From: Eggerthellaceae bacterium
GTDB lineage: Bacteria; Actinomycetota; Coriobacteriia; Coriobacteriales; Eggerthellaceae
Assembly: GCA_910575165.1 (NCBI GenBank)
Contig: CAJTDS010000005.1
Coordinates: 62,001-126,000 of the forward strand
Direction of reading: 5' to 3'
DNA length: 64,000 bases
The position numbers and the translations under genes were made by a program. Of this stretch, positions 5,069 through 62,358 are shown piece after piece (the stretch's first letter is position 1; each line of letters opens with the position of its first letter). The notes beneath the pieces were generated by a model that saw only the letters and a list, made by a program, of their open reading frames with translations, made no database searches and was not told where the DNA came from.

Positions 5069-6010
5069 TTAGCTTTTTGCGTCCTTCTGCGCCTGGACGC
5101 CGTCGGCCTGCTCCTCGTTGCCTGCCGCTTCGGATAAGACTTCCTCGAGGTAGTCGAGATATGCCGCTGCCAGCGGGGAGAGCTCGTGGTCCTTGCGCCA
5201 GCAGAGGGCGAGAAACGAGGTGAGCGGCGGGTCGAGCGGCCGGGTTGTCAAGGTGTCCGTTTCCCATGTTCCGGAATCCCATACCAGCGCCGACCCTACG
5301 CCCTGGTCAACCAGGACAGCCGCGCCGAAGCGAAGGTTGTAAGATCCTGCAATGCTAATCGAGCGCCCCTCGCCGAGCCATTCCCGGATAGCGTTGCCCT
5401 CGTCTATGCGATGGGAGGTCTGCTCCGAGGCGATGATGGGTTCGCTGGCGAGGTCGTCTCGCCCGATGATCCTTTTCCGGGCGAGCGGGTTATCCTTTCT
5501 GACAAGCACTGCCCATTGCTCGCGAAAGGGCAGTACTTTCTTGTTGTACTTGGATATGCTGACGGGCTCGGACAGAAGGGTGAAGTCGAACGCTCCCCGA
5601 TCGAAGCGGTTCTCTAGGTCGAAGGAGTTTCCGCAGTTGAGGTGCAGCTTCGTGTCCGGATGGTAGGTGTGCAGCTTTCGAAACGCTTCTATGAGCAGTG
5701 AAACCCTGGGCGTTTCGGCAATCCCTATGCGGAGGTCGCCTGAAACGGTGTTGCGCAGACCCGAGACTTCCTGTTGGGTGCGGCTGGCGAGCATAAGCAG
5801 CTCGTTCGCTCGGCTTTGCAGCAGCTGTCCCTGCGGCGTCAGCTGCACGCCGGATTTCGAGCGGGTGAAAAGACTGCAGCGAAGTTCCTGCTCCAGGTCC
5901 CTCAGCTGCCTTGAGAGGGCTGGCTGGGATAGATGCAGCTTGTGGGCGGCTCCGGTGACGCTTCCCTCGTCGGCAATGGCGAGGAAGTTCTGCAAAGTGG
6001 CAAGGTCCAT
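5069..6010 (-). CDS. LysR-family transcriptional regulator
   Basis: A 313-residue regulator. The N-terminal winged helix (residues 1-60) has the typical LysR pattern of G-S-V-T-G-A-A, then L-S-Q-P-A-L-S-R-Q, followed by the two-lobed effector-binding domain. GAGGAGAAAG before codon 6010 sets the start; a longer frame to 6049 lacks a site. It is divergent from the tri-heme lipoprotein gene at 6230 across a 219-bp AT-rich spacer, so that gene pair is its likely target. The ligand is unknown. Confidence 0.9.
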   Translation of the reverse strand: MDLATLQNFLAIADEGSVTGAAHKLHLSQPALSRQLRDLEQELRCSLFTRSKSGVQLTPQGQLLQSRANELLMLASRTQQEVSGLRNTVSGDLRIGIAETPRVSLLIEAFRKLHTYHPDTKLHLNCGNSFDLENRFDRGAFDFTLLSEPVSISKYNKKVLPFREQWAVLVRKDNPLARKRIIGRDDLASEPIIASEQTSHRIDEGNAIREWLGEGRSISIAGSYNLRFGAAVLVDQGVGSALVWDSGTWETDTLTTRPLDPPLTSFLALCWRKDHELSPLAAAYLDYLEEVLSEAAGNEEQADGVQAQKDAKS

Positions 6011-6229
6011 GGCTTTCTCCTCGACGACTGACTCCTGTTGCTTAACCATGCTTTTAGATTATGGAAATAGATTATATATCGGTATTTGTAATGTATATGG
6101 CCAGAACCTATATTTGTTTGGGCAAGGGGAGAGGCCGGGGGGCCAAGAGGGGGACAGCTGTAGCGCGCCCGTGCGGTTGCGATTGGTCTGCTTCGACCTT
6201 TCCCGTGGAAATCGAGGAGAAGAGGAACA

Positions 6230-7924
6230 ATGAGGAAACAGCGAATCATCCTCGGGTCCGCGGCGCTTCTGGTCGCAGGCGCGCTCGCCTTGGGCGGTTG
6301 CGCTCCTTCGGCGCAGCCTGCGGATTCGTCGACGCAGGCTGCAGCCGGGCAGGATTCTGCGGCGGTCAATGCCATGGACACGGGCCTGCGTCCGCTGGCG
6401 GATTGGCAGTTGGGGGGAGTGGAGCCCGAGGAATGGCGCGATGCCATCTACGGCTCCTACGAGGACCGCATCGAGGATTGGCCTACCAACGTCATCACCT
6501 TCGAGGACGGCGTGTCGGTGCGGCGCACCCCGTTTCCGGCCCGAGACACCACGGCCAACCTGAAGAACAACATCTCGTTCAACACCTACCGACTCAACGC
6601 CGAGGACCGCGGCTGTTGGGCTTGCCACGACGACCTGGCCGAGCTGGTGCAAACCATCGGAGATGCGCCCCACGAGTTCATCGCCTCGTCCTTGGGCATG
6701 GAGACCACGGTCAGCCAGTGCATCGATTGCCACAACTCCCATCTGGGCGGTCGCTACGAGTCGAACTTCAGCGGTATGATCCACACCATCCACGGCTCGC
6801 GGAACAAGATGTTCGACGCCCAGGGAGGGGATTGCTGGAGCTGCCACTACGGCGTGACGGCCGAGTCGGGCATCGGCAAGAGCTCGCTGGACGAGGAAGG
6901 CCTGCATTTGTGGGACGAGGTCAAGCACAATGTTTTGCGCGGCATCACCACGTTCGCTTCCGATAAGTTCGACGGCAGCTTCAGCGTCGACCAGGACTTC
7001 GTCGAAGGCCCCGACGCGCCCATGTGGACCAACTTCTACGTGAAGAACAGCGAGGACATGATCACGCCCACCAACCTGGCCTTGACCGACATGGGCCAGC
7101 AGCCTGACCCCGCCAACGACGGCGTATTCGAGTCGTGGGAGATCACGCTGAAAAACGAGGGCGGCGAGGAGCGCACCTACACGCTGCAGGAGCTGATCGA
7201 CACGGTGGGCGGCGAAGAGCTGATCATGGGCGTCTCCTGCCTGAACAACGGCGAGAACGGCCCCTATGTCTCGAACCGCGTAATCAAGGGCATCCCTCTG
7301 GTGAAGCTGGCCGAGCTGGTGGGCGCTCAGGACAAGACGCTGGTTGAGGCGCTGGGCCAGGACGGCACCAAGAAGGAGTTCGGCCTGGACTACGTGAAGG
7401 AGTATTCCGGCTACCTGGTGTACGAGATCAGCGGCCAGCCCGTCACGTACATGAACGGCTACCCCTGCCAGGTGTGGCTGGGAGGCTGGATTGCCGACGA
7501 GAACATCAAGGCCGTGACCGAGATTGAGTTCATGGACGGCCAGTGGAACCCGTCGCTGTGGCGCGAAGGCGACTTCTCCCAGAAGGAAGGCACCGCCGGC
7601 TACGCCCCCAACGTCGGCATCGCCTACATGCGCGAAGGCCAGATCTTCAACCTGGGCGACACGGTGGCGTTCCAGGGCTTTGCGAACACCTACGTCCATC
7701 AGATCTCTGACGTTGAGTTCTCTATGGACCACGGCCAGACCTGGAAGACCTTCGAGACCGCCGACCAGGATCCCACGAAATGGACCTGGTGGAACTTCGA
7801 GTGGACGCCCGAGGCGGAAGGCAGCTACTGCTTCATGGTGCGTGCCCACGACACCGGTGGCTACGAGACTCCCGAGCCGGCCGAGATCATGATCAACGTC
7901 GTTGACCCGAGCAAGGAGGGCTAG
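6230..7924 (+). CDS. Tri-heme cytochrome c / sulfite-oxidase-fold lipoprotein (cassette A)
   Basis: 564 residues. A Sec-type signal with lipobox L-G-G-C (Cys24) anchors it outside the membrane. Three CxxCH heme sites are at C129, C164 and C202. Histidines at 148, 185 and 188 are conserved in all three paralogues and could be the distal ligands. From about residue 290 follows a domain resembling the molybdopterin domain of the sulfite oxidase family, with a Cys337-x-x-N-G motif where that family has its Mo-ligand cysteine. The C-terminus resembles that family's Ig-like dimerisation domain (D-H-G-Q-T-W ... W-T-P). The gene order and fold suggest an exported reductase or dehydrogenase fed by hemes. 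The substrate is unknown. The gene for the small partner begins two bases after the stop codon. Confidence 0.8.
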   Translation: MRKQRIILGSAALLVAGALALGGCAPSAQPADSSTQAAAGQDSAAVNAMDTGLRPLADWQLGGVEPEEWRDAIYGSYEDRIEDWPTNVITFEDGVSVRRTPFPARDTTANLKNNISFNTYRLNAEDRGCWACHDDLAELVQTIGDAPHEFIASSLGMETTVSQCIDCHNSHLGGRYESNFSGMIHTIHGSRNKMFDAQGGDCWSCHYGVTAESGIGKSSLDEEGLHLWDEVKHNVLRGITTFASDKFDGSFSVDQDFVEGPDAPMWTNFYVKNSEDMITPTNLALTDMGQQPDPANDGVFESWEITLKNEGGEERTYTLQELIDTVGGEELIMGVSCLNNGENGPYVSNRVIKGIPLVKLAELVGAQDKTLVEALGQDGTKKEFGLDYVKEYSGYLVYEISGQPVTYMNGYPCQVWLGGWIADENIKAVTEIEFMDGQWNPSLWREGDFSQKEGTAGYAPNVGIAYMREGQIFNLGDTVAFQGFANTYVHQISDVEFSMDHGQTWKTFETADQDPTKWTWWNFEWTPEAEGSYCFMVRAHDTGGYETPEPAEIMINVVDPSKEG

Positions 7925-7925
7925 C

Positions 7926-8417
7926 ATGGAGAACACGAAGAAGATGGCGGGAATCGCCGGGACCATGCTGCTGGCAGCAGGCATGGGAGCTGGTGCGGCG
8001 GCGACGGTGGTGCAGCAGGCCCAGGCGGCTCCCGCAGTGTCCGCGGCTGCAGCCCATGAGGGTCAGACCGCGGCAGCCCAAGGCGATGCCGCTGCTGTTG
8101 CGGGTACGTTCTCCTACAGCCAGAACGTCGTTACGGGCAACGCCACGGTGAAGGCGGTGTTCTCCAAGGCGGCTGCGGCGATGTGCGTGGCCATGCCGCA
8201 GTACACCCAGAAGTGCGTCGACGTGACGGCCATGCAGGTCGCAGGCCCCGCCGGCAGCATGGCGGCCGCGGTGGGCGACCTGGTTGCCGGTGACGAGCAG
8301 TCCTCCCTGATGGCGTGCGCCTGCTCCACCAACGGCGTCGGCGGCGGCGCGATAGCTAACGCCGACGTGTCCGGCATCACCATGCACACCCTGGCCATCA
8401 TGATGAAGGCGCTGTAA
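7926..8417 (+). CDS. Small secreted cysteine-motif protein (cassette A partner)
   Basis: 163 residues, family not recognised. An N-terminal hydrophobic segment with an A-Q-A cleavage site points to export, and a low-complexity Ala/Gln linker follows. The core has G-x-F-x-Y-S-Q-x-x-V-T, V-F-x-K-A-A-x-x-x-C, and near the C-terminus M-A-C-A-C-S-T-N followed by G-G-G-A-I-A-N-A-D-V. The same motifs occur in the proteins at 12141 and 52572, each behind a tri-heme lipoprotein. Its ribosome site AAGGAGG lies inside the end of the upstream gene, so the two are translated together. The invariant cysteines could bind a metal, form a disulfide or carry substrate; none of this is shown by the sequence. 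Confidence 0.85.
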   Translation: MENTKKMAGIAGTMLLAAGMGAGAAATVVQQAQAAPAVSAAAAHEGQTAAAQGDAAAVAGTFSYSQNVVTGNATVKAVFSKAAAAMCVAMPQYTQKCVDVTAMQVAGPAGSMAAAVGDLVAGDEQSSLMACACSTNGVGGGAIANADVSGITMHTLAIMMKAL

Positions 8418-8465
8418 GAAACGATAAACAGCGCTTGCCGCTGCCCGAGAACCGTATTTCGAAGA

Positions 8466-8508
8466 GAGGCCGCCGCCGACCCGGGATACCCTGGTCGGCG
8501 GCGGCCTC
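8466..8508. terminator. Strong hairpin between convergent genes
   Basis: A 15-bp perfect stem (8466-8480 with 8494-8508), very GC-rich, between cassette A and the convergent LuxR gene. There is no T run on either side, so factor-assisted termination or mRNA end protection is more likely than classical intrinsic termination. Confidence 0.5.
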
Positions 8509-8519
8509 GGCCTATCACG

Positions 8520-8548
8520 CCATCAGGATGCTGCCGACGCGGAAGGCG
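8520..8548 (-). pseudogene. Remnant matching the 3' end of the DUF1648 gene
   Basis: Twenty-seven of 29 bases match 12832-12860, the 3' end of the membrane protein gene at 12824-13963. Read on the minus strand it encodes A-F-R-V-G-S-I-L-M-A and a stop, against A-F-C-I-G-S-I-L-M-V-G in the intact gene. It lies immediately after the stop of the LuxR gene. Probably a leftover of a duplicated or deleted copy. Confidence 0.5.
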
Positions 8549-8561
8549 CCGGCAGCCTTCG

Positions 8562-10205
8562 CTAAGCTTTCGGTGCGGCGTCTCTGGCCAGCGACAGCAG
8601 TTCGCTTTCGGAGTGGACGCCGGTTTTTGCGTAGATGCGCTGGATGTGGGTGCGCGTGGTGTTGATGGAGATGACCAGCTCCTCGGCGATAGTGGAGGGG
8701 CGCTGCCCTTGGAGCACGCGGAACAGGATTTCCTCCTCCCGCTTCGTCAGCTTGTGGTCGCCGGCGATCTCGCGGCATCGGCGGCGCAGGCGGTCGTCGA
8801 AATGCCCCTTGGGCGACGTCTTCTCCTCCAAGCCCCAGTAGGTTCGCATGCCGGTCATGATAGGTATTTCGAACATGGCGATCACCAGAAGCAGGAAGGC
8901 CCCTGAGGCCACTATGGTGAACGCCGTGCTGTCGAAGGGCATCGCGCCGTGCAGCAGCAGCGGGCCGAGCAGCCCCACGACCTGGCCGGCGTAGTAGACG
9001 AACAGGCAAAGTGCGCAGATGACGAAGGGCGAGAGCCCGGTATGGCGCGCTACGAGGGCGAAGGCGGCGAACAGGGACAGGGTGTAGAGCGCAAGCCCTA
9101 CCTGCGAGAGGATCTCGGGCACCGTGTAGGCGTCAGTCATGATGAGCGGCATGAGAAAGAGCCCCATCATGATTACGGGAAACGTGGCCTTCGTGGTGAA
9201 GTGCCAGATACGCACCAAGGAAGCGGTTCCCTTCGAGGGGCGAAACGCCACGGCGAACCACAGGCAGGCGATGGCCGTACCCGCCAGATGGCAGAGCGTT
9301 CGCAGCTCGGGCGTGTGCCCAGATCCGGTGGGGAAGGTGTGGATGATTCCGAACACCGCACCGAACAGGGCAACGTGCAGCAAGGGGGTCCACAGGCCGT
9401 CGCCGAGAAGCCATGCCCTGCGGCCCTCTTCGCTGCGTCGCTCCCGGTTGGCGGCAACGTTTGACGAGGCGACGTTGCGCAGCCAGAGAAAGCTCAAGGC
9501 GCAGGCGGCAACGGTGACGGCCACCGATGCTGCGAGCGCGCCAACGCCGAAGCCCGACGGAAGCGTGGCCAGGAACAGGGCGGATTTGACAGCGGCTGAG
9601 CCGAGCGTCGCGGCGGCCAAGCAGGGCAGCAGCCTTTCCCGAGCCAAGGAGAAGAGCAGCCCCAAAAGCGTTACGAGCAAGAAGGGCGCTACGACGCAGA
9701 ACAGGAACTGGAAGGCGAAGATGCCGACCATGATGCCCCGGAAGAGGCAAAGGTAGTATCCGATGCTCGTTGCGGCAAGGACCGGGACGACGGCCGTCGC
9801 GAAGGGCGCCCCTTCCGCGCGCCGCCGTGAGAATCGCCAAGCGGCCAGAAACCCGATGCAGGTTCCCGCAGTGTCGGTGATGCAGGACAGGTCGCGCATG
9901 GTGAAGCCCGCCGTAAAGCTTGCGGGGTCAGCCTGCGCAAGCAGCGGAAAAGGCGGAACCGACAGGGCGCTCACGTCGTGGAACGACGACCACCAGCCCC
10001 AGCAGAGCGCGAAGAGTCCTGCGAGCAAGGCGACGCGGCCGGTGCCGGAAGGCCCTGCGGGGGCGGCTGCGTCGGCTCTGCTCTCCACGACGGTTGCAGC
10101 CGCTCCTTCGGCGCCCTGAGTCCCGAGGCGCTTTCCCCCTTGCCGTCCGGACACGACTCGCTTCCCCCTCATGAGCCTGCAACCCCCCATCCAGCTATCG
10201 TTCAT
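8562..10205 (-). CDS. Membrane-embedded LuxR-type regulator
   Basis: Up to 547 residues: an N-terminal half of many hydrophobic helices (about 12, residues 40-440) and a C-terminal LuxR/GerE helix-turn-helix in the last 70 residues (L-T-K-R-E-E-E-I-L, then T-R-T-H-I-Q-R-I-Y-A-K). This architecture is common in Eggerthellaceae and suggests direct sensing of a small molecule at the membrane. Start choice is uncertain: codons at 10205, 10190 and 10172 are possible, and the last has the best purine run upstream. The gene is divergent from cassette B (10466), which is the likely target, and its 3' end faces cassette A. Confidence 0.85.
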   Translation of the reverse strand: MNDSWMGGCRLMRGKRVVSGRQGGKRLGTQGAEGAAATVVESRADAAAPAGPSGTGRVALLAGLFALCWGWWSSFHDVSALSVPPFPLLAQADPASFTAGFTMRDLSCITDTAGTCIGFLAAWRFSRRRAEGAPFATAVVPVLAATSIGYYLCLFRGIMVGIFAFQFLFCVVAPFLLVTLLGLLFSLARERLLPCLAAATLGSAAVKSALFLATLPSGFGVGALAASVAVTVAACALSFLWLRNVASSNVAANRERRSEEGRRAWLLGDGLWTPLLHVALFGAVFGIIHTFPTGSGHTPELRTLCHLAGTAIACLWFAVAFRPSKGTASLVRIWHFTTKATFPVIMMGLFLMPLIMTDAYTVPEILSQVGLALYTLSLFAAFALVARHTGLSPFVICALCLFVYYAGQVVGLLGPLLLHGAMPFDSTAFTIVASGAFLLLVIAMFEIPIMTGMRTYWGLEEKTSPKGHFDDRLRRRCREIAGDHKLTKREEEILFRVLQGQRPSTIAEELVISINTTRTHIQRIYAKTGVHSESELLSLARDAAPKA

Positions 10206-10465
10206 AGCGCGGACAAAGAAACACCTTATCAGCCACCGTTTCAGTCGCCGTCATTATATTTTCAGTATCTTGCTCGGTTCGGTCCCGATAACGAAATACA
10301 GAAATATTGGTGTTTGAGCGGCTTCCCCTGCGCCGTAGCTTTCTTTGCGCAAGGAACCGCGGCTGCCGGTCGCCCCGTGTGCTCGCAGGGGGCTGGCGAC
10401 AAGGCGGCGGTTTGCAAGGAAGAGGAGGGCGGCGACAAAGGCCGTCCCGGAGAGAAGGAGGAAGG

Positions 10466-12127
10466 ATGAGGCAAGGTACCACCTGCGCTTCCGCCAAAGC
10501 CTCGTGGCGCAAGGCGTTCGCAACCTTGGCGGCCGTCGCCTTGGTGGCAGGCGTGATGGGCGTTGCGGTTGTAGGCTGCGCGCCCCAGGGAGGCACCGGC
10601 AAGGCGGACGCGCCGAAGCAAAGCGCCGAGCAGCCCGCATCGGGCCAGGCGGCCAATCCTGCGACGGATGCATCGGGCGAATCGGAGACGAAGGCGGCCG
10701 TGGATACCCCCGGTTCCACCCAGGCGGTAACCATGAAGGACTACCGCAACATGAGCTCGGGGCTGTTCCCAGACACGAAGGACAACACCGAATGGCTCAA
10801 CACCGGCAACCGTGGCTGCAACGCCTGCCATGACGATCTCTACGACGTCATGATGATGCAGGAGCCCAAGCACATCGTTTCGAAGTTCGGCTTCGGCAAG
10901 AAGCTTGCCGTCAACGACTGCCTGCCCTGCCATGACAGCCACACGTCGCGCTGCGCCCCCTACTTCGGAGACATCATGCATGCCAAGCACTACGGAAGCA
11001 CCATGTTCACCGAAGGCGGCGGCAACTGCTGGAGCTGCCATGCCATGAACTCCGCCGGCGCGCTGGGCGAGTATCAGTTCATGCTGTTCGACCACCTGAT
11101 GTACATGGACGACCTGGGCGGCTTCATCGACGGCTCCACCGATCCGAACCAGTGGTGGCTGAAGAGCCGCGGTTACGAGAGCGGGTACCGCACGGGCATC
11201 ACCACGGAAGGTGCGCCCACGCTCGACGTGGCCATCGACCAGCCCGTCACCGAAGAGGACGACATGTTCATCATCGAGAACTACGGCACCACCGAGGTCG
11301 ACATCGACAAGTGGACGCTGGACTTCACCGAGGGCGTGAACAACCCCCGCAGCTTTACGCTGGACGAGCTGAAGGCCATGCCCCAGACCGAGATCACCGC
11401 TACCCAGGCGTGCTTCACCAACGGCGTGAACGGCGTTTTGGCCTGCAACATCCCCATCAAGGGTGTGAAGCTGTCCTACCTGATCGAGCAGTGCGGCGGC
11501 CTGGTGGACGGCGTGAACTCCATCCATACCGACTCCGGCGACTGGGAGCCTTGGTTCCAGGATCACTCCTGGGAGGTTATCGAAGCGGTCGACCCCATCG
11601 TCGCGCTCGAGTACTTCGGCCATCCGCTCGACGCCCATCAGGGCTACCCGGCCACGATGGTCTACCCCGGCCTGTCCGGCGGCCCTTGGCAGAAGTACCT
11701 GACCACTGTCTCCTTCAAGACCGTGGAGGTGCCCAACGAGGCCCAGCGTAACTTCCCCAAGCTGTTCGGCAATCCCGAAGGCCCCACCCGCGCCGATGGC
11801 TCCACGCTGATCTTCCCCGTGAACAGCGCCTTCTTCGACAACGACGGCATCGAGGCCAAGGTAGGCCAGGAGCTTACCCTCAGCGGCTACTCGTGGTCCT
11901 GGGCCCAGTACGCCGGTACGCTGACCACCATCGAGTTCAGTGACGACTACGGCCGTAACTGGACCGAAGTCGAGGTGCCCGCAAGCTTCGACCCCAACCA
12001 GTGGGTGCGTTGGGACCTGAAGTGGACCCCTTCCGAGCCCGGCACCCATATCCTGCACGTGAAGGGCATTTCCGACATGTACGAGCAGTCCGTGCCCTCC
12101 AGCATCATCATCGAAGTCGCGGAATAG
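10466..12127 (+). CDS. Tri-heme cytochrome c / sulfite-oxidase-fold lipoprotein (cassette B)
   Basis: 553 residues, paralogue of the genes at 6230 and 50911. Lipobox V-V-G-C (Cys38). Heme motifs begin at C118, C152 and C188, with conserved extra histidines at 136, 172 and 175. The sulfite-oxidase-like domain has Cys316-F-T-N-G, and a C-terminal Ig-like domain ends in S-I-I-I-E-V. The start is fixed by AAGGAGGAAGG. It has no twin-arginine signal, which is odd if the protein really carries a molybdopterin cofactor, because such enzymes are normally folded in the cytosol and exported by Tat. The small partner starts 13 bases downstream. A divergent LuxR gene lies upstream. Confidence 0.8.
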   Translation: MRQGTTCASAKASWRKAFATLAAVALVAGVMGVAVVGCAPQGGTGKADAPKQSAEQPASGQAANPATDASGESETKAAVDTPGSTQAVTMKDYRNMSSGLFPDTKDNTEWLNTGNRGCNACHDDLYDVMMMQEPKHIVSKFGFGKKLAVNDCLPCHDSHTSRCAPYFGDIMHAKHYGSTMFTEGGGNCWSCHAMNSAGALGEYQFMLFDHLMYMDDLGGFIDGSTDPNQWWLKSRGYESGYRTGITTEGAPTLDVAIDQPVTEEDDMFIIENYGTTEVDIDKWTLDFTEGVNNPRSFTLDELKAMPQTEITATQACFTNGVNGVLACNIPIKGVKLSYLIEQCGGLVDGVNSIHTDSGDWEPWFQDHSWEVIEAVDPIVALEYFGHPLDAHQGYPATMVYPGLSGGPWQKYLTTVSFKTVEVPNEAQRNFPKLFGNPEGPTRADGSTLIFPVNSAFFDNDGIEAKVGQELTLSGYSWSWAQYAGTLTTIEFSDDYGRNWTEVEVPASFDPNQWVRWDLKWTPSEPGTHILHVKGISDMYEQSVPSSIIIEVAE

Positions 12128-12140
12128 AGAGGACAGACCT

Positions 12141-12638
12141 GTGGAAACGAAAGTCAGCAAAGCCCAAGCCGCCGGCGCTATCCTGGGGTCCGTCGCCCTG
12201 GCCAGCTCGGGCCTGGTGATCGCGGCTCCCATGGTGGCTGCAACCGGATCGTTCGTCGCGGAGGCCGCCGCTGCGGAGGTGAGCCAGGACGCTGCGGCAG
12301 CGGGGATCGCCCAGGCGGCCCGTGCCGAGGGAAGTTTCACCTACAGCCAGGAGGCGGTAACCCCCGTCGCCGACATCAGGGGCGTGTTCTGCAAGGCCGC
12401 AAGCGCCCTGTGCGCGTCGCTGCCGGACTACGGCGTTCAGAACGCCCAGGCTATCGCGGTGAGCAACGGGGGCCAGACCATGCAGCTGGCCATTGCCGAC
12501 GGCCAGCAGGACGAGGGCTACGGCTCCTACACCATGGCCTGCTCCTGCGCCACGAACGCCCCTGGCGGCGGTGCAGTGGCCAACGCGGACGTCGCCGGCA
12601 TCAAACTGGCCTCCATCCTGGCCATGAGCATCTTCTAA
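12141..12638 (+). CDS. Small secreted cysteine-motif protein (cassette B partner)
   Basis: 165 residues with a GTG start preceded by GAGAGGACAG. An exported N-terminus is followed by an Ala-rich linker. The conserved core is G-S-F-T-Y-S-Q-E-A-V-T, V-F-C-K-A-A-S-A-L-C, L-P-D-Y, and M-A-C-S-C-A-T-N-A-P-G-G-G-A-V-A-N-A-D-V. It carries one extra cysteine (in V-F-C-K) not present in the other two copies. Function unknown; the consistent pairing with a tri-heme lipoprotein argues for a shared complex outside the membrane. Confidence 0.85.
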   Translation: METKVSKAQAAGAILGSVALASSGLVIAAPMVAATGSFVAEAAAAEVSQDAAAAGIAQAARAEGSFTYSQEAVTPVADIRGVFCKAASALCASLPDYGVQNAQAIAVSNGGQTMQLAIADGQQDEGYGSYTMACSCATNAPGGGAVANADVAGIKLASILAMSIF

Positions 12639-14479: not shown

Positions 14480-15940
14480 GTGCTCGAGGGGAAGATCGCG
14501 GAGATACGCAAGGCGTTCGCGCCGTCGGCGGCGCTAGTGCTGGCGGTGTACAGCCTGTATCGGGTCATCAGCTTTTCCAGCTACACCACCAACTTCGCCA
14601 CATTCGCCGAGCCGCTCGGCTACGTGTCGAACGGCCAGTTTATGATAGGGGCTGGCGTCGGCAATGTGGGCGCGTGCCTGGTGGTTCTGGTGCTGTACGC
14701 AAGGCGCTGGCTCAAGCCTTTCGGTACCAACGCCACTGCTGCCTTGGCGGTTACCGCTGTCGTGTACGTGGTGAACGCCCTGTTTCCGGAGAAGCTCTTC
14801 GACGTGCTGTCCGCGGGTGGCCTGGGCGTTATCTGGGGCGTCGTTGTGACCGTGCTGAGCCTCTCCTGCGCCGAGCTGCTGGTTCCGGGGAAATCGCCGG
14901 TCGCCCCTATCGTGCAGCTTGCCGTTTCGGCGTTTCTCATGCCGTTCATCATCACGGGCTTCGACCTGTTCCCGCGGCCGTGGGGATCGCTCGTCTATGC
15001 AGGCGCATGTGTGCTCGTCGCGGTGCTGATCGCCTGGGGTCGGCGCATCCAAAAGCCCGGCCCGTGCCCGCAGCGCCCCCTCGCCACGCTGCGGAAGACC
15101 CTGCGGGAGTCGGCCATCCCCATTCTTGCAGCCTCTTCCTTCGAGCTAGTGGTGGGGCTGGTGAACACCTATGCCAGCTTGAACAGGGATTCCTTCGTCA
15201 TCGCCGACAACGCGCCGGTGTGGGGGCCTGCCATCTGCTCGGCGCTGGTCATCCTGTTCGTGTTCTTCACCAGCCGAGCGCCGCGTCAGGGCATCGTGTA
15301 CAACGTGGTGTTTCCCGGCGTCATCGCAGTGTTCCTGCTGCTGCCCTTCTTCGGCGACCGCTTGTCCGCGGCGCTTTCCACGGTGATCTACTCGGCGTAC
15401 TCCTTCACCATGATGCTCTCACTGTACTGCGTCGTCATCGCATGCCGCCGCAGCAACGACAGTTGTTACGGCATTATGGCTATCTACGGTATGAGCCGGC
15501 GGCTGTTCTTGATGGCAGGGTTGGCGCTGGGCTGGTACTTCGGCAACCTTACCGAGGGCGGTACCTTCGTGCGCGTCACCATCGTGTGCGTGGTGAGCGT
15601 CTACATCTTGGGCATGGTGGTAGGTCTGCGCAGCATCGTGGCCTCCCGGCGTCGCCAGCCGCAGCCGGAGCCCGTGGTGGTGGTCGAGCGCGTGACCGAG
15701 CGCGTGACCGAAACCTTCGAGCAGTCCATGGAGCGGCGCGTGGACGAGCTGACCGAGCGCTACCAGCTGTCTCCGCGCGAGCGCGACGTGCTGGTGGGGC
15801 TTGCCCAGGGGCACACGGCCGCAGCCATAGCCGAGAGCCTGCATCTGTCTACCTCGACAGCCCAAGGCTACATCAAAAGCCTTTACGTGAAGCTAGGGGT
15901 GAACAAGAAACAGCAGGTCATAGACTTGTTTAAAAGTTAA
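14480..15940 (+). CDS. Membrane-embedded LuxR-type regulator
   Basis: 486 residues, GTG start with a weak purine stretch upstream. The N-terminal 390 residues are about 12 hydrophobic helices. After a charged linker rich in V-T-E-R comes a LuxR/GerE helix-turn-helix (L-S-P-R-E-R-D-V-L-V-G-L-A-Q-G, then S-T-A-Q-G-Y-I-K-S-L-Y). It lies 140 bases upstream of the flavoprotein reductase at 16081 on the same strand, so it probably controls that gene. Its promoter overlaps the palindrome at 14436-14462, which may tie it to the GntR protein. Confidence 0.85.
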   Translation: MLEGKIAEIRKAFAPSAALVLAVYSLYRVISFSSYTTNFATFAEPLGYVSNGQFMIGAGVGNVGACLVVLVLYARRWLKPFGTNATAALAVTAVVYVVNALFPEKLFDVLSAGGLGVIWGVVVTVLSLSCAELLVPGKSPVAPIVQLAVSAFLMPFIITGFDLFPRPWGSLVYAGACVLVAVLIAWGRRIQKPGPCPQRPLATLRKTLRESAIPILAASSFELVVGLVNTYASLNRDSFVIADNAPVWGPAICSALVILFVFFTSRAPRQGIVYNVVFPGVIAVFLLLPFFGDRLSAALSTVIYSAYSFTMMLSLYCVVIACRRSNDSCYGIMAIYGMSRRLFLMAGLALGWYFGNLTEGGTFVRVTIVCVVSVYILGMVVGLRSIVASRRRQPQPEPVVVVERVTERVTETFEQSMERRVDELTERYQLSPRERDVLVGLAQGHTAAAIAESLHLSTSTAQGYIKSLYVKLGVNKKQQVIDLFKS

Positions 15941-48796: not shown

Positions 48797-50629
48797 TCAG
48801 TCGGCCTTCGCAGATGCGTCGCGACGCTGCTTTACCAAGTCGGCGAGGTCGCCTCGGGAATGGAGGTTCATCTTCGCGTAGATGCTGGTGGTGTGAGAAT
48901 GGACGGTGGCAGGGGAGATTACGAGCCTGTCCTGGATCTCCTTGTTGCGGTAGCCCCTGGCCAGCAGTGCGAAGATTTCTTGCTCGCGGCTGGTCAGGCC
49001 GAATTCCAGCGAAAGCTTTCCTATGACCGAGTCTAAAGCGGGGCGCTGCACCTCGGCATGCGGCTCCGGGCTGCCCGGAGCGATACTCGCCGCTTCGGTG
49101 CTGATGGCGAACAGCGAGTGCACCTCGGCTCGCCCGTGGGCACCGAGCTTCTTGTAGACGCTCTGGACATGGGTTTTGACGGTGTTCTCCGAAAGCGCCA
49201 TGCTGTTTGCCATAGAGCGGGTAGTCGTGTCGCTGAGGACGAGGTCCAGCACTTCGCGCTCCCGGGAGGTGAGCCCGGCGGCGGAGACCAGCTCGTCATA
49301 GTGCTTCCTGCGGGCCGCCTCGGCCCTGCGCTCCTGCTCCGTCCAGATGCGTCTGCCCGAGGCGGCGCCGGTCGACGGGTCGAGGTATCGCTGGCCCATA
49401 GACACCGTTGCGAACAGGCCGAAGACGACGGCGTACCCAACGGCGGTCATGATCGCCGACTGAACGCCCGAGGAAAGTTCCATGGCGTCGAACAGGGCGC
49501 CCAGGCCCATGCCCAAGTCGGTGACGCCTGTGAGGAACACCATTCCGAAACAGAGCGGCCCGAGAGGGTTGACGCGCCGGGCGTCGGCGACTTCGGAGAA
49601 AACGGCGATCTCGAAGATTGCCACAAGAGCGAAGCAGGCCATGTTGACGTAGTTGCACACGAGCGGCGAAATGCCGGCGACCTCGAAGAAAGGCATGAGG
49701 GCGAACGCGGCCGACATGAGCATGGTCCCCACCCAGAAGAAACGGCGGGGGGATACCTGGAAAAGGCCGATAGCGATAAAGCATGCCAGCGCACCCAAAC
49801 CGCGCGCGATGAGGAACGTGAACCCCATGATCGCATCCGGCGAAGCGGATAGCGAGAACGAGAACCGGTAGTTCATGAAGTTGAATCCGATTTCGGCGAT
49901 GACGATTCCGACGAGCAGGGGGAGGCCGAGGCCGAAGAACTCGTCTTTCAGCCCGCAGCCCATGGTCGACGCTTTGATGGCGGGGCGCCTGCCCATTTCC
50001 CGGACGTCGACGTGCGCGCCAACGGCGAAACGCATGATCAACAGCGATGCCAGGGGCAGGATGCAGGAGAGGGCCGCTGCAGCGCAAGGCTTCATCGCCG
50101 CCAGCATAACGGCGTCGATCGCCACTCCTCCAGCGATTCCGAGGGACATGTCGATGATGCTCGACGAGGCTCCCCTCTCGCTGGCTACGGGAAACCACAA
50201 GGCAATGAGGATGGCTATCGACAAGCCATTTGCAGACGAGCCGATGGCGGCCAGGCCAGGCAGCCCTTCGGCGGCTGACAGGATGCAGAGAGCGGAGCCG
50301 GCAACGGGGGCGAGGGCGCAGAGCGCTGCAGATTGCGGCTTGGCCGCCAGCTTTCCGAATGCGCCAGGGTTGCGTGCGATCAGGACCAGCGCGATTCCGC
50401 TTACGGCCATGCCCACAAGAAACGAGGGGAGCGAGAGTGCCGTCGAGTCGTTCCATGCATAGAAGGTTCCGAGGTAGAACGACTGATCCCACCACGCCCA
50501 GAACAGGGACAGCCCGATGACGATTGCCGGGGCCGTCGATCCGTGGAGGAGCTTTTTGTGCTGTGGCGCCACGAGGTGTCTCGCTTTCGGGTAGAAGGCG
50601 GGAGGAGGGGTGCTCTTCCCGCAGGTCAT
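48797..50629 (-). CDS. Membrane LuxR-type regulator with two tandem DNA-binding domains
   Basis: 610 residues. About 12 hydrophobic helices (35-430), then two complete LuxR/GerE helix-turn-helix domains: the first at about 452-508 (L-T-S-R-E-R-E-V-L, T-V-K-T-H-V-Q-S-V-Y-K-K-L), the second at about 544-603 (L-T-S-R-E-Q-E-I-F, T-V-H-S-H-T-T-S-I-Y-A-K-M). The other membrane LuxR proteins in the window have one such domain. Divergent from cassette C (50911), its likely target, with 281 bp between. The ribosome site is weak. Confidence 0.88.
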   Translation of the reverse strand: MTCGKSTPPPAFYPKARHLVAPQHKKLLHGSTAPAIVIGLSLFWAWWDQSFYLGTFYAWNDSTALSLPSFLVGMAVSGIALVLIARNPGAFGKLAAKPQSAALCALAPVAGSALCILSAAEGLPGLAAIGSSANGLSIAILIALWFPVASERGASSSIIDMSLGIAGGVAIDAVMLAAMKPCAAAALSCILPLASLLIMRFAVGAHVDVREMGRRPAIKASTMGCGLKDEFFGLGLPLLVGIVIAEIGFNFMNYRFSFSLSASPDAIMGFTFLIARGLGALACFIAIGLFQVSPRRFFWVGTMLMSAAFALMPFFEVAGISPLVCNYVNMACFALVAIFEIAVFSEVADARRVNPLGPLCFGMVFLTGVTDLGMGLGALFDAMELSSGVQSAIMTAVGYAVVFGLFATVSMGQRYLDPSTGAASGRRIWTEQERRAEAARRKHYDELVSAAGLTSREREVLDLVLSDTTTRSMANSMALSENTVKTHVQSVYKKLGAHGRAEVHSLFAISTEAASIAPGSPEPHAEVQRPALDSVIGKLSLEFGLTSREQEIFALLARGYRNKEIQDRLVISPATVHSHTTSIYAKMNLHSRGDLADLVKQRRDASAKAD

Positions 50630-50910: not shown

Positions 50911-52551
50911 ATGAGGAAAGAGGAGAGGAAGGTTGCGCTGTGGCGCAGGGTCGTCCTGGCGGCTGGTTGCGTGGCGCTTGCTGCCGCCTTGGCATCGGCG
51001 GCCGCATGCTCGCCCGCATCGCCGACGAAGGCTGATGCAGGCGACGAACCCAAGGCTGCGGCAGAAGGGTCGACGGCCGACGAACCGAAGACGCAGGACC
51101 CGACGAGCGAGGAGGCCGTTCTCGCCAACATAGGCATCATCGCGAACGACTATCAGAGCAGAGACGCCGGTCCGTTCATGGACGATTACAATATCTCGGC
51201 CAAGCTAAATGCCGGCAGCCGCGGCTGCGATGCGTGCCATGAGGACCTGCAGGCTACGATCAAAGACATCTCTCCGGTGGTGCACATTATGACCACGGGC
51301 GCCATTTTCGGGAAGACGGTGGACTGGAACGACTGCGAATCGTGCCATTCCATGCAGGGCACCCGCGGGGGCGTGTACTTGGGCGAGTTCATGCACAACA
51401 CCCACTACTCGAGCCCGACGTTTACCGATACTCAGAACGGCACGTGCTGGAGCTGTCACGCCATGGCGAAGAACGGCGAGATGGTTATGTGGGACGAGTA
51501 CGTGTACGATGAGCAACTGAGCGGCTATAGCGCCAACGTGGAAGTCGGCAAGTTCGAGTCCTCCGTCGAGTTCTTCGAGCGCCGCGGCTATAACGCCGAC
51601 AACTCTACAGGGATGTCTATTATGGCCGCCGACGATGTGGATGTGGAAGTACGGCTCGACCAGGCTATGACTACGGAAGCCGATCGCTACGAGGCGGTGA
51701 ACTACAACATTCCCGAATGGACCGAGGCGGACTTCGAGCGGTGGACTATCGACATCAAGGGCGTGAAGAACCCGCGCTCCTTCACGTTGGCGGAGTTGGC
51801 CGAGCTGTTCGATAAAGGCACCTACCAAGTTACCCAGGAGTGCTTGGTCAACGGCGTGAACTCTTCGCTCGAGGACAGCTTCGAAGCGTCGGGTTATCTG
51901 CTTGCCGATATCATCGAATACTGCGGGGGCTTAGAAGACGGCTGCACCACGGTGAAGGCGTTCGCCGATTCCGAAGAAGGCTGGGATTTCTGCGTCGAGC
52001 TGGATGACGCGCTGAAGAACGGCTCGTTCATAGCCGTAGAGTACTACGGCCACGAGATGACGCCTTACGAGGGAGCGCCGGCCGTGCTAGTGAACCCGGG
52101 CTTCCCGGGCGGCACCTGGGTCAAGTACCTGACGAGCGTAGAGTTCGGGACGAACGAGGTGACGGCTCCCGTCCGTATTGTGGGCGGCGACGAATTTTAC
52201 GCAGGTAAAGAGGATCCCCATCTGTACCCCTGTAATTCCGCATGGTTCAACCCGGCGCGCGACGGACAGGTGTTCAAGGTGGGGCAGCCAGTGACGTTGG
52301 AGGGATTCGCCTGGGTGTGGAACCTGGACGGCCACAGCACTGGCGCCGTTCGTTTCAGCTGGGATTACGGTCATACGTGGGTAACCCAGGAGGTGGCCGT
52401 AGACGCCGATCCCAACAATTGGCAGCGCTTCTACGCCACTTGGACCCCCACGGAGCCCGGTACCTACTGCCTGAAGGTGGAGGCGGTGGATGCTGCGGAT
52501 GGATGGCATCAGAAGAAACCGGCGAGCGTAATCGTTACGGTGGAGGAATAG
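50911..52551 (+). CDS. Tri-heme cytochrome c / sulfite-oxidase-fold lipoprotein (cassette C)
   Basis: 546 residues, paralogue of the genes at 6230 and 10466 and closest to the second. Lipobox-like A-A-A-C (Cys33) behind a hydrophobic signal. Hemes start at C106, C142 and C179; conserved extra histidines at 125, 162 and 165 could be distal ligands. The sulfite-oxidase-like domain has Cys311-L-V-N-G, and the Ig-like C-terminal domain has W-D-Y-G-H-T-W and W-T-P-T-E-P. The start is fixed by CAGGAGGAG. Codon use is less biased than in its paralogues (more A/T at third positions), pointing to a different age or origin. Confidence 0.8.
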   Translation: MRKEERKVALWRRVVLAAGCVALAAALASAAACSPASPTKADAGDEPKAAAEGSTADEPKTQDPTSEEAVLANIGIIANDYQSRDAGPFMDDYNISAKLNAGSRGCDACHEDLQATIKDISPVVHIMTTGAIFGKTVDWNDCESCHSMQGTRGGVYLGEFMHNTHYSSPTFTDTQNGTCWSCHAMAKNGEMVMWDEYVYDEQLSGYSANVEVGKFESSVEFFERRGYNADNSTGMSIMAADDVDVEVRLDQAMTTEADRYEAVNYNIPEWTEADFERWTIDIKGVKNPRSFTLAELAELFDKGTYQVTQECLVNGVNSSLEDSFEASGYLLADIIEYCGGLEDGCTTVKAFADSEEGWDFCVELDDALKNGSFIAVEYYGHEMTPYEGAPAVLVNPGFPGGTWVKYLTSVEFGTNEVTAPVRIVGGDEFYAGKEDPHLYPCNSAWFNPARDGQVFKVGQPVTLEGFAWVWNLDGHSTGAVRFSWDYGHTWVTQEVAVDADPNNWQRFYATWTPTEPGTYCLKVEAVDAADGWHQKKPASVIVTVEE

Positions 52552-52571: not shown

Positions 52572-53066
52572 ATGAAAGAAGCAACGACGAAGATAGTGGC
52601 GCCTGCGATGTCCCTGCTTATGGTGGCTGGCGCCGGGGCGGGGGTTGCGGGTGCGGTTGTCGCGCCTGACACCGCCCAGGCGGCCGCGGTGCAGCGGGAG
52701 GCCAACCAGGTTGCGAGCGGCCAGGCTCGAGCCTGTGCGGTGCAGATTGCGGGGGAGTTCGCGTTCAGCCAGGCGGCGGTCACGCCGAACGCCACCATCT
52801 CCGAGGTGTTTGCGAAAGCGGCCGCAACGCTCTGTGCGTCCATGCCCGCCTACAGCGATGCGTGCGCATGCCAAGCTCTTCTGGTGAGCGCTCCGGGTGC
52901 TTTCTCGGAGGCGACCGTCGGGCAGCTGTCGGCAGGCGCGGAATCGTCCAGCTATACGCTCGCCTGCGCTTGCGCGACGAACGCTCCTGGCGGTGGCGCC
53001 GTGGCCAACGCGGATGTGTCCGGTTTGAGCTTGGCTGGTTTGGCTAGAGCGATGGGCGTTCGCTAG
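52572..53066 (+). CDS. Small secreted cysteine-motif protein (cassette C partner)
   Basis: 164 residues. Exported N-terminus with an A-Q-A-A site. The core has G-E-F-A-F-S-Q-A-A-V-T, V-F-A-K-A-A-A-T-L-C, M-P-A-Y, then L-A-C-A-C-A-T-N-A-P-G-G-G-A-V-A-N-A-D-V. It has additional cysteines (one in the linker and a C-A-C pair at about residue 97-99) absent from the other two copies. Starts 20 bases after the cassette C lipoprotein with GGGGAGAG upstream, and is followed by a strong terminator that ends the two-gene operon. Function unknown. Confidence 0.85.
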   Translation: MKEATTKIVAPAMSLLMVAGAGAGVAGAVVAPDTAQAAAVQREANQVASGQARACAVQIAGEFAFSQAAVTPNATISEVFAKAAATLCASMPAYSDACACQALLVSAPGAFSEATVGQLSAGAESSSYTLACACATNAPGGGAVANADVSGLSLAGLARAMGVR

Positions 53067-54971: not shown

Positions 54972-56633
54972 CTACTGGTCGCTGGGGTTGAACCCCTCCA
55001 CCAGCTCGATGAGCTCCTGTCGCTTGTGGATGCCGAGCTTCGTGTAGATGCGCTTGGAATGGGTGCGCACGGTGTTCTCGGACACGACGAGCATCTCGGC
55101 GATGCGCGCCACGGAGTTGCCGCGGGCGATGAGCTCGGCCACCTCGGTCTCGCGGGCCGACAGGCCGAAATGCTCGCGGACGCGGGCCATCTGCTTCGAG
55201 AAGCGGTCGCGGTAGGTGGCGGCGTCGTCGCGCTCGGGCACGGCGGCGCGCCCGAGGGAGGCGCCGCCTGCGGGGGTCGTGCCCTCGGCCTGCGGTTCGG
55301 CTTCCGCGCTCGCCTGCTTCGCCTCCGCCCTGCGCGCGGCTGCGCCCTCCTGCATGGCGCCCGAAGCCTCGCCCGGCTCGACGGCGACAGGGCGCTTCGC
55401 CGCACGCGGTCGCGAGGAGAGCAGCTCGATCTGGCTCATCGACCCTTCGGCGATGGCGGAACGGAAGCCGCCTTCGCCCACGAAGTACATGATGCCGAGG
55501 AAGTAGACGGCCACGATGGCCACGAGCGCCAGCGACGGGATGTGGAACATCGACAGCTGCTCGACGAACGACCCGCCCATGAACCCCACGTCGTGCAGGG
55601 CGTAGACGATGCCCCCGAACACTCCGTAGATGAACACCGGGTTGATGCCCCCGTCGCGCGACACCTGGGCGCATTGGATCATCATGAGCATGATGACCAC
55701 AGACCACAGGGCGTACAGCACCGCGGCCAGCACCTGGACGTAGGTGGAACCCAGAAGCGGCAGCAGCACGAAGGCCGAGGTGACCAGCGGGAAGAAGACC
55801 CGGTAGGACACGGCCACGTTCAGATGGACGTTCTTCGCGCTCAGCACGCCGAGCAGGATGAGCGCGGCGATGAGCGACGCCAGCATCGAAAGTACGTTCA
55901 CCAAGGCTCCCACCTGCGGTTCCGCCGTCGCGAGCGAGCGCATGATGCCGGTGCAGAATCCGAGCGCCCCCATGGCCAGCGCCGTGCGCCACACGCAGGC
56001 GATCACGTGCTTGTAGGTGCGCGGATGTTCCTTGGGCACGTCTTCGAACATGGGCTGGTCGAGGTCGATGGTGCGGCTCATGAGCACGATGGCCAGGCCG
56101 AACAGCGGCAGGAAGACGAGCGGGATGAGATAGGCCGTCACGGCCACGGGGATGAGGTGCAGCGCGAAGTAGAAGATCGACCCCCAGGCGGTGCCGCTGA
56201 TGAGCGTGTGGTTCCCTTCGTGGGCGTCCATGCTGGCGAACAGGCGCTGCCAGAGCATGTAGAAGCCCGCCGATCCGATGCCGAGCAGCACGCCGCCCGC
56301 GGTGACGAGCGCCAGGGCGGCCTCGTCCAGGTAGATGGCGCCGATGAGCGAGGACCAACCGATGATGTAGGGAGCGGCCACGGCTTTCACCATGAAACGG
56401 CGCGCGCCGTCGGGGAAGAGGTAGGTGCCCGCAGCACTGGCGAAGAACGTCACGGCGAAGGCGAGGGACTGGGCGGCGAAGAAGTGCAGCAGGATGTCGG
56501 GCGTCTGGAAGCCCATGGGCAGGAAGGGGAACACGCCGCCCCAGACGCTGGCGGCGTTGATGGCGAGGAAGAGCCCGTAGCCGAGCGAGGGCAAATCGGG
56601 CCTTACGGCCTGTATGGCGGCGGGCAGTTCCAC
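54972..56633 (-). CDS. Membrane-embedded LuxR-type regulator
   Basis: 553 residues: about 12 hydrophobic helices in the first 400, an Ala/Glu/Gly-rich linker, and a single LuxR/GerE helix-turn-helix in the last 65 (L-S-A-R-E-T-E-V-A-E-L, T-V-R-T-H-S-K-R-I-Y-T-K). Divergent from the DMSO-reductase-family operon starting at 56976, its probable target. No clear ribosome site at the first ATG, so a slightly different start is possible. Confidence 0.87.
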   Translation of the reverse strand: MELPAAIQAVRPDLPSLGYGLFLAINAASVWGGVFPFLPMGFQTPDILLHFFAAQSLAFAVTFFASAAGTYLFPDGARRFMVKAVAAPYIIGWSSLIGAIYLDEAALALVTAGGVLLGIGSAGFYMLWQRLFASMDAHEGNHTLISGTAWGSIFYFALHLIPVAVTAYLIPLVFLPLFGLAIVLMSRTIDLDQPMFEDVPKEHPRTYKHVIACVWRTALAMGALGFCTGIMRSLATAEPQVGALVNVLSMLASLIAALILLGVLSAKNVHLNVAVSYRVFFPLVTSAFVLLPLLGSTYVQVLAAVLYALWSVVIMLMMIQCAQVSRDGGINPVFIYGVFGGIVYALHDVGFMGGSFVEQLSMFHIPSLALVAIVAVYFLGIMYFVGEGGFRSAIAEGSMSQIELLSSRPRAAKRPVAVEPGEASGAMQEGAAARRAEAKQASAEAEPQAEGTTPAGGASLGRAAVPERDDAATYRDRFSKQMARVREHFGLSARETEVAELIARGNSVARIAEMLVVSENTVRTHSKRIYTKLGIHKRQELIELVEGFNPSDQ

Positions 56634-61485: not shown

Positions 61486-62358
61486 ATGACCGGTTTCCCC
61501 ACCGCCTTCAGCGAGATCACCCTGGTTCTGTTCACGACGCTGGCGCCTTCCGGGGCGCTCGCCTACGTGCTGGCGAACCTGCCGATCGCCTTCGGCCGCG
61601 CCACCGACGAGGAGCGCGAGCACCTCGACAGGTCGTCGTGGCTGTTGCTGGCCGTCACCATGGTGGGGCTCGTCGCGTCGGCGACGCACCTGGGCAACCC
61701 TTCGAACGCCCTGTACGTGTTCACGGCCGTGGGCAAAAGCCCCCTTTCCACCGAGGTCTTCTGCGCCGTGGTGTTTTTGGCCCTCGCCGGCGTGTACTGG
61801 CTGTACTCCTTCGCCGAGCGGCCCCGCCGGCGGCTGCAGCGGGCGGCCGTCATCGCTACCAACGCGGCGGCGCTCGCGTTCGTCGCGGCGACGGCCTTCG
61901 CCTACAACGTGGGCACCGTCCCCACGTGGAGCCATCCCCTGGTGCCGATCTCGCTGTTCGCGAACGCCCTGATGGGCGGTCCGGTGTTGGCGTGCCTGGG
62001 CTTTGCGGCGGCGCGCTTCGAGCCGGGGCGCGCGCCATGGGGAGGCAGGCTTCTGGGGCTCTCGGCGGCGGCCCTTGCGGCGAACCTGGCCGTGTACGCC
62101 GTCATGGCTGTACAGCTGGCGCCGGTCTCCAACGAGCTAGCGAGCGTGCCCGAGCTGGTGCCGAACTACGCGGCGTTCATCGCGGCGTTCGCGGTGCTGG
62201 CCGCGGCTGGGCTTTTCGTGGGGTTCCGCGGTCTGCGGGCCCGGGGGAGGAGCCTTGTCGTCAGGATGGCCTGCGCGAGCGCTCTCGTGCTGGCGGGGCT
62301 GTTCGTCATGCGCTTCACGTTCTACATGTCGCACCTGACCATCGGGCTGGGAATCTGA
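61486..62358 (+). CDS. DmsC-type membrane anchor subunit
   Basis: 290 residues with eight hydrophobic helices, starting T-G-F-P-T-A-F-S-E-I-T-L-V-L-F-T-T-L. It would oxidise menaquinol and hand electrons to the ferredoxin subunit on the outer face. The pattern H-L-G-N-P in the third helix region is shared with DmsC. Starts 12 bases after the chaperone. Last gene of the operon. Confidence 0.9.
   Translation: MTGFPTAFSEITLVLFTTLAPSGALAYVLANLPIAFGRATDEEREHLDRSSWLLLAVTMVGLVASATHLGNPSNALYVFTAVGKSPLSTEVFCAVVFLALAGVYWLYSFAERPRRRLQRAAVIATNAAALAFVAATAFAYNVGTVPTWSHPLVPISLFANALMGGPVLACLGFAAARFEPGRAPWGGRLLGLSAAALAANLAVYAVMAVQLAPVSNELASVPELVPNYAAFIAAFAVLAAAGLFVGFRGLRARGRSLVVRMACASALVLAGLFVMRFTFYMSHLTIGLGI

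Follow-up and report, generated by a model that had tools for sequence, protein, structure and literature searches.

Enzymes of the SUOX (sulfite oxidase-type) family, including SorA/SorAB, SorT, SoxCD and vertebrate sulfite oxidase, combine the SUOX fold with a Mo-ligand-type cysteine, a C-terminal immunoglobulin (Ig)-like domain and a heme partner. All of these features recur in the lipoproteins encoded by three two-gene cassettes (A, B and C) in a 64,000-nucleotide stretch (the window; positions 62,001–126,000, forward strand, of contig CAJTDS010000005.1, assembly GCA_910575165.1) from an Eggerthellaceae bacterium. In contrast to the described enzymes, however, three hemes are carried here on the same lipid-anchored chain, the sulfite-binding arginine is absent, and no twin-arginine translocation (Tat) motif is conserved. 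Additionally, there is a second, heme-free SUOX subunit that is split over two genes. The small protein encoded next to each lipoprotein is, as judged from profile homology, the front half (N-half) of this subunit, and a single gene elsewhere in the genome encodes the remainder (C-half).

Other described systems share individual features with the cassettes. SoxCD has a separate heme subunit and the partner SoxYZ, whereas the hemes here are on the lipoprotein chain, and no carrier gene was found among the neighbours inspected beside the cassettes, which are regulators. SoxYZ resembles the small protein as a small exported partner with a conserved cysteine, but its carrier-arm motif is absent here. 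The SUOX group-1 reductase MsrP (YedY), for which a quinol-fed reductase role has been proposed (PMC7759655), shares the SUOX fold. The electron donor of MsrP is the membrane cytochrome MsrQ, and MsrP has neither a fused heme module nor a dimerisation domain, whereas the cassettes encode a fused c-type tri-heme module, an Ig domain and a second SUOX subunit. PruR is an exported SUOX-fold, pterin-binding signalling protein of ~170 residues with a tryptophan instead of the Mo-ligand cysteine (PMC13259868). It is small, exported and SUOX-related like the small protein, but represents a whole SUOX-type fold, whereas the small protein comprises half a domain, retains the cysteine, has two more and is partnered by a tri-heme lipoprotein. 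Within the Eggerthellaceae, catechol dehydroxylases and flavin reductases occur as many paralogues per genome with adjacent LuxR regulators of 10–12 transmembrane helices (PMC9734109, PMC11574389); these expansions comprise bis-molybdopterin guanine dinucleotide molybdoenzymes or flavoenzymes, in contrast to the SUOX-fold cassettes. No described system of this composition was found in the literature searched, and, to our knowledge and in that literature, a second subunit split in this way, with one half held in common, is undescribed.

Cassettes in the window

The genes and motifs of the three cassettes are as follows.

6230..7924 (+): cassette A lipoprotein, 564 residues, with lipobox, tri-heme module, SUOX domain (PF00174, residues 300–438, E 4e-13) and C-terminal Ig-like domain
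6614, 6719 and 6833: CxxCH motifs of lipoprotein A
7238..7240 (+): Mo-ligand-type cysteine C337 of lipoprotein A, invariant in 11/11 paralogues
7926..8417 (+): cassette A small protein, 163 residues, N-half of the second SUOX subunit by profile-profile homology, with export signal
8316..8333 (+): CxCxTN motif of small protein A, whose second cysteine takes the place of the Mo ligand in the SUOX fold
10466..12127 (+): cassette B lipoprotein, 553 residues, tri-heme, SUOX (PF00174, E 4.5e-21) and Ig
10817, 10919 and 11027: CxxCH motifs of lipoprotein B
11411..11413 (+): Mo-ligand-type cysteine C316 of lipoprotein B
12141..12638 (+): cassette B small protein, 165 residues, predicted N-half
12540..12557 (+): CxCxTN motif of small protein B
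50911..52551 (+): cassette C lipoprotein, 546 residues, tri-heme, SUOX (PF00174, E 3e-18) and Ig
51226, 51334 and 51445: CxxCH motifs of lipoprotein C
51841..51843 (+): Mo-ligand-type cysteine C311 of lipoprotein C, placed by alignment and motif positions
52572..53066 (+): cassette C small protein, 164 residues, predicted N-half

The small gene follows the lipoprotein gene after 1 base in A, 13 in B and 20 in C. Each lipoprotein has a lipobox, three CxxCH motifs and a match to Oxidored_molyb (PF00174, E 4e-13 to 5e-21), while the Mo-cofactor dimerisation/Ig domain was matched weakly. Three further histidines (H136, H172 and H175 in B numbering) are invariant, and the small proteins contain both A-C-x-C-x-T-N and GGGAxANADV. 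A preliminary description of this DNA, made from the sequence alone, had given the positions, spacing and sizes of the three cassettes exactly, and all the motifs that it listed, as well as the SUOX-like module, were confirmed.

The lipoprotein as a SUOX family member

The AlphaFold2 model of lipoprotein B has a predicted template modelling score (pTM) of 0.73, and its SUOX and Ig domains are mostly modelled at a predicted local distance difference test score (pLDDT) of at least 90. A Foldseek search with this model returned SorA (E 4e-22), SorT, chicken sulfite oxidase and SoxC as the best neighbours, with MsrP and PruR (E 2e-6) at greater distance. The Mo-ligand-type cysteine aligns with that of 6y0k and is invariant in all 11 lipoproteins of the genome and in an alignment of 18 sequences (18/18). 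By predicted fold and by this cysteine the lipoprotein is thus a member of the SUOX family, with a putative Mo-pyranopterin cofactor. In the cofactor segment, a lysine is kept in the 11 lipoproteins and the arginine of 6y0k is lost. The positions aligned with the sulfite-binding arginines of SorA (R55 and the arginine after the Mo-ligand cysteine) are not arginine in any of the 11. Since these arginines are not kept, a substrate other than sulfite is likely.

Assignment of the small protein to a second SUOX subunit

Profile-profile comparison with hhalign aligned residues 54–167 of the small family with columns 232–334 of its own partner lipoproteins (E 2.7e-6, probability 88.6%). On the lipoprotein, this alignment covers the N-terminal half of its SUOX domain, including the Mo-ligand loop, and the second cysteine of the small proteins' CxC falls on the Mo-ligand position. 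Longer relatives of 267 and 360 residues run on through the domain and match nearly the whole of PF00174 (E 3e-14 and 1e-15). Because of this profile homology and these unsplit relatives, the ~165-residue protein is assigned to a second, heme-free SUOX subunit as its N-half, and not, as the preliminary description had it, to a separate kind of protein. The hidden Markov model of the small family also matches inside the lipoprotein of a further cassette, I (E 1.5e-9).

All 11 small proteins of the genome have intact frames, 13 invariant columns and a common end point. Three cysteines are invariant (C91, C134 and C136 in B numbering). Modelled alone, small protein B reached a pLDDT of 54.7 from a shallow alignment, which does not contradict an incomplete fold, and a profile search of the PDB with the small family gave no match. 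Two other explanations were dropped: a novel CxC domain in view of the homology to the partner's SUOX N-half, and a sequencing error or frameshift in view of the common end of all 11 proteins and the lack of a C-half downstream of any of them.

The missing C-half and gene layouts

The C-half gene encodes the C-terminal part of the SUOX domain and the Ig domain in ~190 codons, and in many relatives it lies after or near the small gene. It is absent beside all 11 small genes of the present genome, which contains one strong match (E 9.5e-106, C2:290957-291511) in a stand-alone gene of 191 codons (L079:4943-5518); the next matches listed are segments of the lipoproteins. Between genomes, C-halves are 51–78% identical. 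About 15 kb from the single C-half, an Ig-type domain like that of the second subunit is encoded on its own (L080, G000:C2:306539-306766).

Three layouts of the second subunit were observed. In layout I, both halves are fused in one gene of ~360 codons, as in the Eggerthella lenta type strain (DSM 2243; 359 residues, encoded at ~1,320,106–1,321,185). Layout II consists of ~270 codons and a separate Ig gene of ~95 codons, of which the stand-alone Ig domain mentioned above is apparently a leftover or still-used piece. In layout III, ~165 codons are accompanied by a separate C-half, either in tandem or in trans. Tandem or neighbouring genes are found in Slackia and Eggerthella sinensis, with three pairs in one Slackia metagenome-assembled genome, while the trans arrangement has fewer C-halves than N-halves, with ratios of 11:1 in the present genome and 5:1 in Adlercreutzia hattorii. 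In A. hattorii, the C-half and a membrane LuxR gene overlap at the end of the latter (L116:5263-7679), which suggests that the two are translationally coupled.

Of the 18 genomes with short N-halves, 15 also have a separate C-half, compared with none of the remaining 20 genomes that carry the family (Fisher p 5e-8); short and long forms were distinguished by us from open-frame lengths and inspected loci. In two of the three exceptions (G010 and G082) the small gene lies near a contig end; the third, G012, is genuine. In a tree of the C-part, all forms of the second subunit branch apart from the lipoproteins. The C-halves fall on one side of a branch with weak support (51/93), which bears on a single or multiple origin of the split.

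Expansion, pairing and distribution

The whole genome (2.72 Mb, 99.7% complete) encodes 11 small proteins and exactly 11 PF00174 proteins above the cut-off, all of the tri-heme lipoprotein kind, and every lipoprotein (11/11) directly adjoins one small gene. Neither this elevenfold expansion nor the shared C-half had been noticed in the preliminary description. The small gene had been described as always following the lipoprotein. This order holds for 10 of the 11 cassettes, and in cassette J (contig C12) it is reversed, with the small gene upstream. The lipoprotein of cassette I (contig C3, L019:5306-6886) has CX4CH as its first heme motif. It also carries the G-x-F-x-x-x-Q-D motif of the small protein and, among the lipoproteins tested, is the one placed nearest the second subunits by the tree of the C-part.

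In other genomes, the lipoprotein is encoded directly upstream on the same strand in 129 of the 133 second-subunit matches listed. The remaining four comprise one that proved paired on inspection, two at contig ends and one match inside a lipoprotein. The pair is therefore not a chance association, given its 11 recurrences here and these 129 cases elsewhere. The earlier proposal that the two genes belong together is borne out by this strict linkage, and the small family is not spread away from the lipoprotein among the matches listed.

The small family is present in 38 and the lipoprotein in 39 of 138 Eggerthellaceae genomes, in nearly the same genomes. The named relatives, by which the present genome is placed in this family, are Adlercreutzia, Eggerthella sinensis, Slackia and Gordonibacter. 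The small family is also found in two further families of the order. Outside Eggerthellaceae, a phylum-level search for the tri-heme and SUOX combination matched the SUOX part only. Within the genus the distribution is patchy, and two of four genomes (G002 and G003) have no cassette compared with 11 here, which points to strong gain or loss, with horizontal transfer as a possible cause.

Regulators and electron supply

Each cassette in the window has a divergently transcribed regulator next to it (membrane helices, here and below, were predicted by a simple hydropathy count).

5069..6049 (-): LysR-type regulator, divergent from cassette A (PF00126 and PF03466)
8562..10205 (-): membrane LuxR-type regulator between A and B, divergent from B (GerE, E 2e-11; ~9 predicted membrane helices)
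48797..50629 (-): membrane LuxR-type regulator, divergent from cassette C (GerE, E 4e-33, two stretches; ~10 predicted helices)

In total, eight LuxR-type proteins with ~8–12 predicted membrane helices are encoded beside the cassettes of the genome. LuxR proteins with 10–12 transmembrane helices are substrate-specific activators in E. lenta (PMC9734109). Because most cassettes have their own regulator, it is probable that the paralogues serve different acceptors, and the earlier suggestion of a different substrate for each copy is plausible on these grounds. More LuxR-like genes, with no obvious target enzyme, are located near C (54972-56633, -) and near B (14480-15940, +).

In Slackia faecicanis, a lipoprotein, an N-half, a membrane-anchored cytochrome and a C-half are encoded in tandem. 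The orthologue of this cytochrome in the present genome is 53% identical and stands at the head of an apparent cytochrome c maturation cluster. There, a membrane multiheme cytochrome gene is directly followed by CcmE-, CcmF-, CcmA-, CcmB- and CcmC-like genes (L114:4637-11248; G000:C5:38136-44747), named by our own reading rather than by a family search. This membrane cytochrome is likely the shared quinol-side electron donor. The hemes of the lipoprotein are probably bis-His ligated, as the extra invariant histidines suggest. The direction of reduction is favoured because of these probable bis-His hemes, the anaerobic gut lineage (taken from the named relatives) and the membrane cytochrome in the S. 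faecicanis tandem.

A five-CxxCH multiheme protein (L018:1467-2288, -) is encoded beside a flavin-reductase-like gene ~3 kb from cassette H. The product of the latter gene starts with RRDFLK, a canonical Tat motif, in contrast to the absence of such a motif from the cassettes.

Proposed mechanism and alternatives

We propose that the cassettes encode quinol-fed extracytoplasmic reductases, each with a second SUOX subunit formed from a private N-half and a shared C-half, and give this reading a probability of roughly 0.45. Each cassette would encode an oxidoreductase of the SUOX class that is lipid-anchored outside the cytoplasm and takes up electrons through its own tri-heme module, together with the N-half of the heme-free subunit. 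The latter would be completed by the single C-half (SUOX C-part and Ig domain) encoded elsewhere, and the reassembled subunit would replace the second protomer of a SUOX-type dimer with each lipoprotein. Electrons would most likely be drawn from menaquinol by an NrfH-like membrane cytochrome, enter the three His-ligated hemes and from there reach the SUOX active site, where a small-molecule acceptor, probably differing between paralogues, would be reduced. Somewhat short of even odds, and thus tentatively, we further suggest that the one C-half is common in trans to all eleven N-halves. This would give combinatorial subunits with the active-site region across the seam, each with its own tri-heme reductase, and the C-half would cross the membrane riding on an N-half or by another route.

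Several observations weigh against this proposal. The C-halves have no export signal, whereas the N-halves have one. Simple inspection of the N-termini of the 11 lipoproteins and of 27 N-half or unsplit proteins revealed no conserved twin-arginine motif, and Tat export of the N-half was rejected accordingly. The lipoprotein looks Sec-exported, and exported molybdoenzymes normally acquire the molybdenum cofactor (Moco) in the cytoplasm and then exit folded by Tat (PMC10609526). In G012, a metagenome-assembled genome of 99% completeness, a short N-half is present with no detectable C-half. Finally, pairwise distances of lipoproteins and small proteins are uncorrelated in the 11 cassettes (r 0.18, p 0.18), so that a mirror-tree argument for dedicated pairs failed. 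A comparison of N-halves with C-halves on nine rows was uninformative (r 0.24, p 0.20). The lipoprotein of cassette C is 75% identical to its E. sinensis counterpart (L074) over the aligned part, compared with only 44% for the small proteins. These uncorrelated distances weaken the view that every small protein is adapted to its own lipoprotein, and thereby to a substrate.

The same lack of correlation keeps alive the alternative that the second SUOX protein (N-half and C-half) is no permanent subunit but a maturation factor, which delivers Moco or another pterin to the exported apo-lipoprotein. One generic C-half for 11 N-halves and the lack of co-evolution would fit a generic helper encoded beside each client, and a Sec-type lipoprotein would have to receive Moco once outside the cytoplasm. 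SUOX-family enzymes have no known enzyme-specific chaperone (PMC10609526), and PruR provides a precedent for an exported SUOX-fold pterin binder (PMC13259868; fold match E 2e-6). However, the unsplit form keeps an Ig dimerisation-type domain for which a carrier has no obvious need, and a C-half lacking an export signal is equally damaging to this explanation, which we consider unlikely.

It is quite improbable that the cassettes are sulfite or sulfane dehydrogenases of the SorAB or SoxCD kind that pass electrons into the hemes. Although SorA, SorT and SoxC are the closest folds and sequences, the sulfite-binding arginine positions of SorA are not arginine in 11/11 lipoproteins, and 11 divergent paralogues for one substrate would be unexpected in an anaerobic lineage. 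Very improbable is a stand-alone role of the small protein as an exported carrier or redox protein with its active site at CxC, akin to SoxYZ, which the preliminary description had offered as a loose analogy. Three invariant cysteines, an export signal and strict linkage would suit such a protein, but the small protein is homologous to half a SUOX domain, its CxC is internal, the C-terminal GGCGG arm of SoxY is absent from all 11 copies, and no confident stand-alone AlphaFold2 fold was obtained (from a shallow alignment). That the short proteins are functionless, decaying truncations of a lost subunit, as the lack of a C-half beside all 11 might suggest, is barely credible against 11 intact frames with 13 invariant columns and the same end point, a C-half kept once and 51–78% identical between genomes, and its co-occurrence in 15/18 versus 0/20 genomes.

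Implications

The proposed arrangement raises the questions of how Moco enters a Sec-type lipoprotein with c-type hemes and by what route a half without a signal joins its exported partner. E. lenta offers genetic tools together with the unsplit form, and the species with split forms allow comparison. If the proposal is true, the second subunit would be a naturally split enzyme, with one half common to many partners. The cassettes would then represent a large class of respiratory enzymes outside the cytoplasm, so far undescribed, in gut Eggerthellaceae, including the E. lenta type strain, and the regulators adjoining them are of the kind that marks substrate-specific metabolism of drugs, catechols and lignans.
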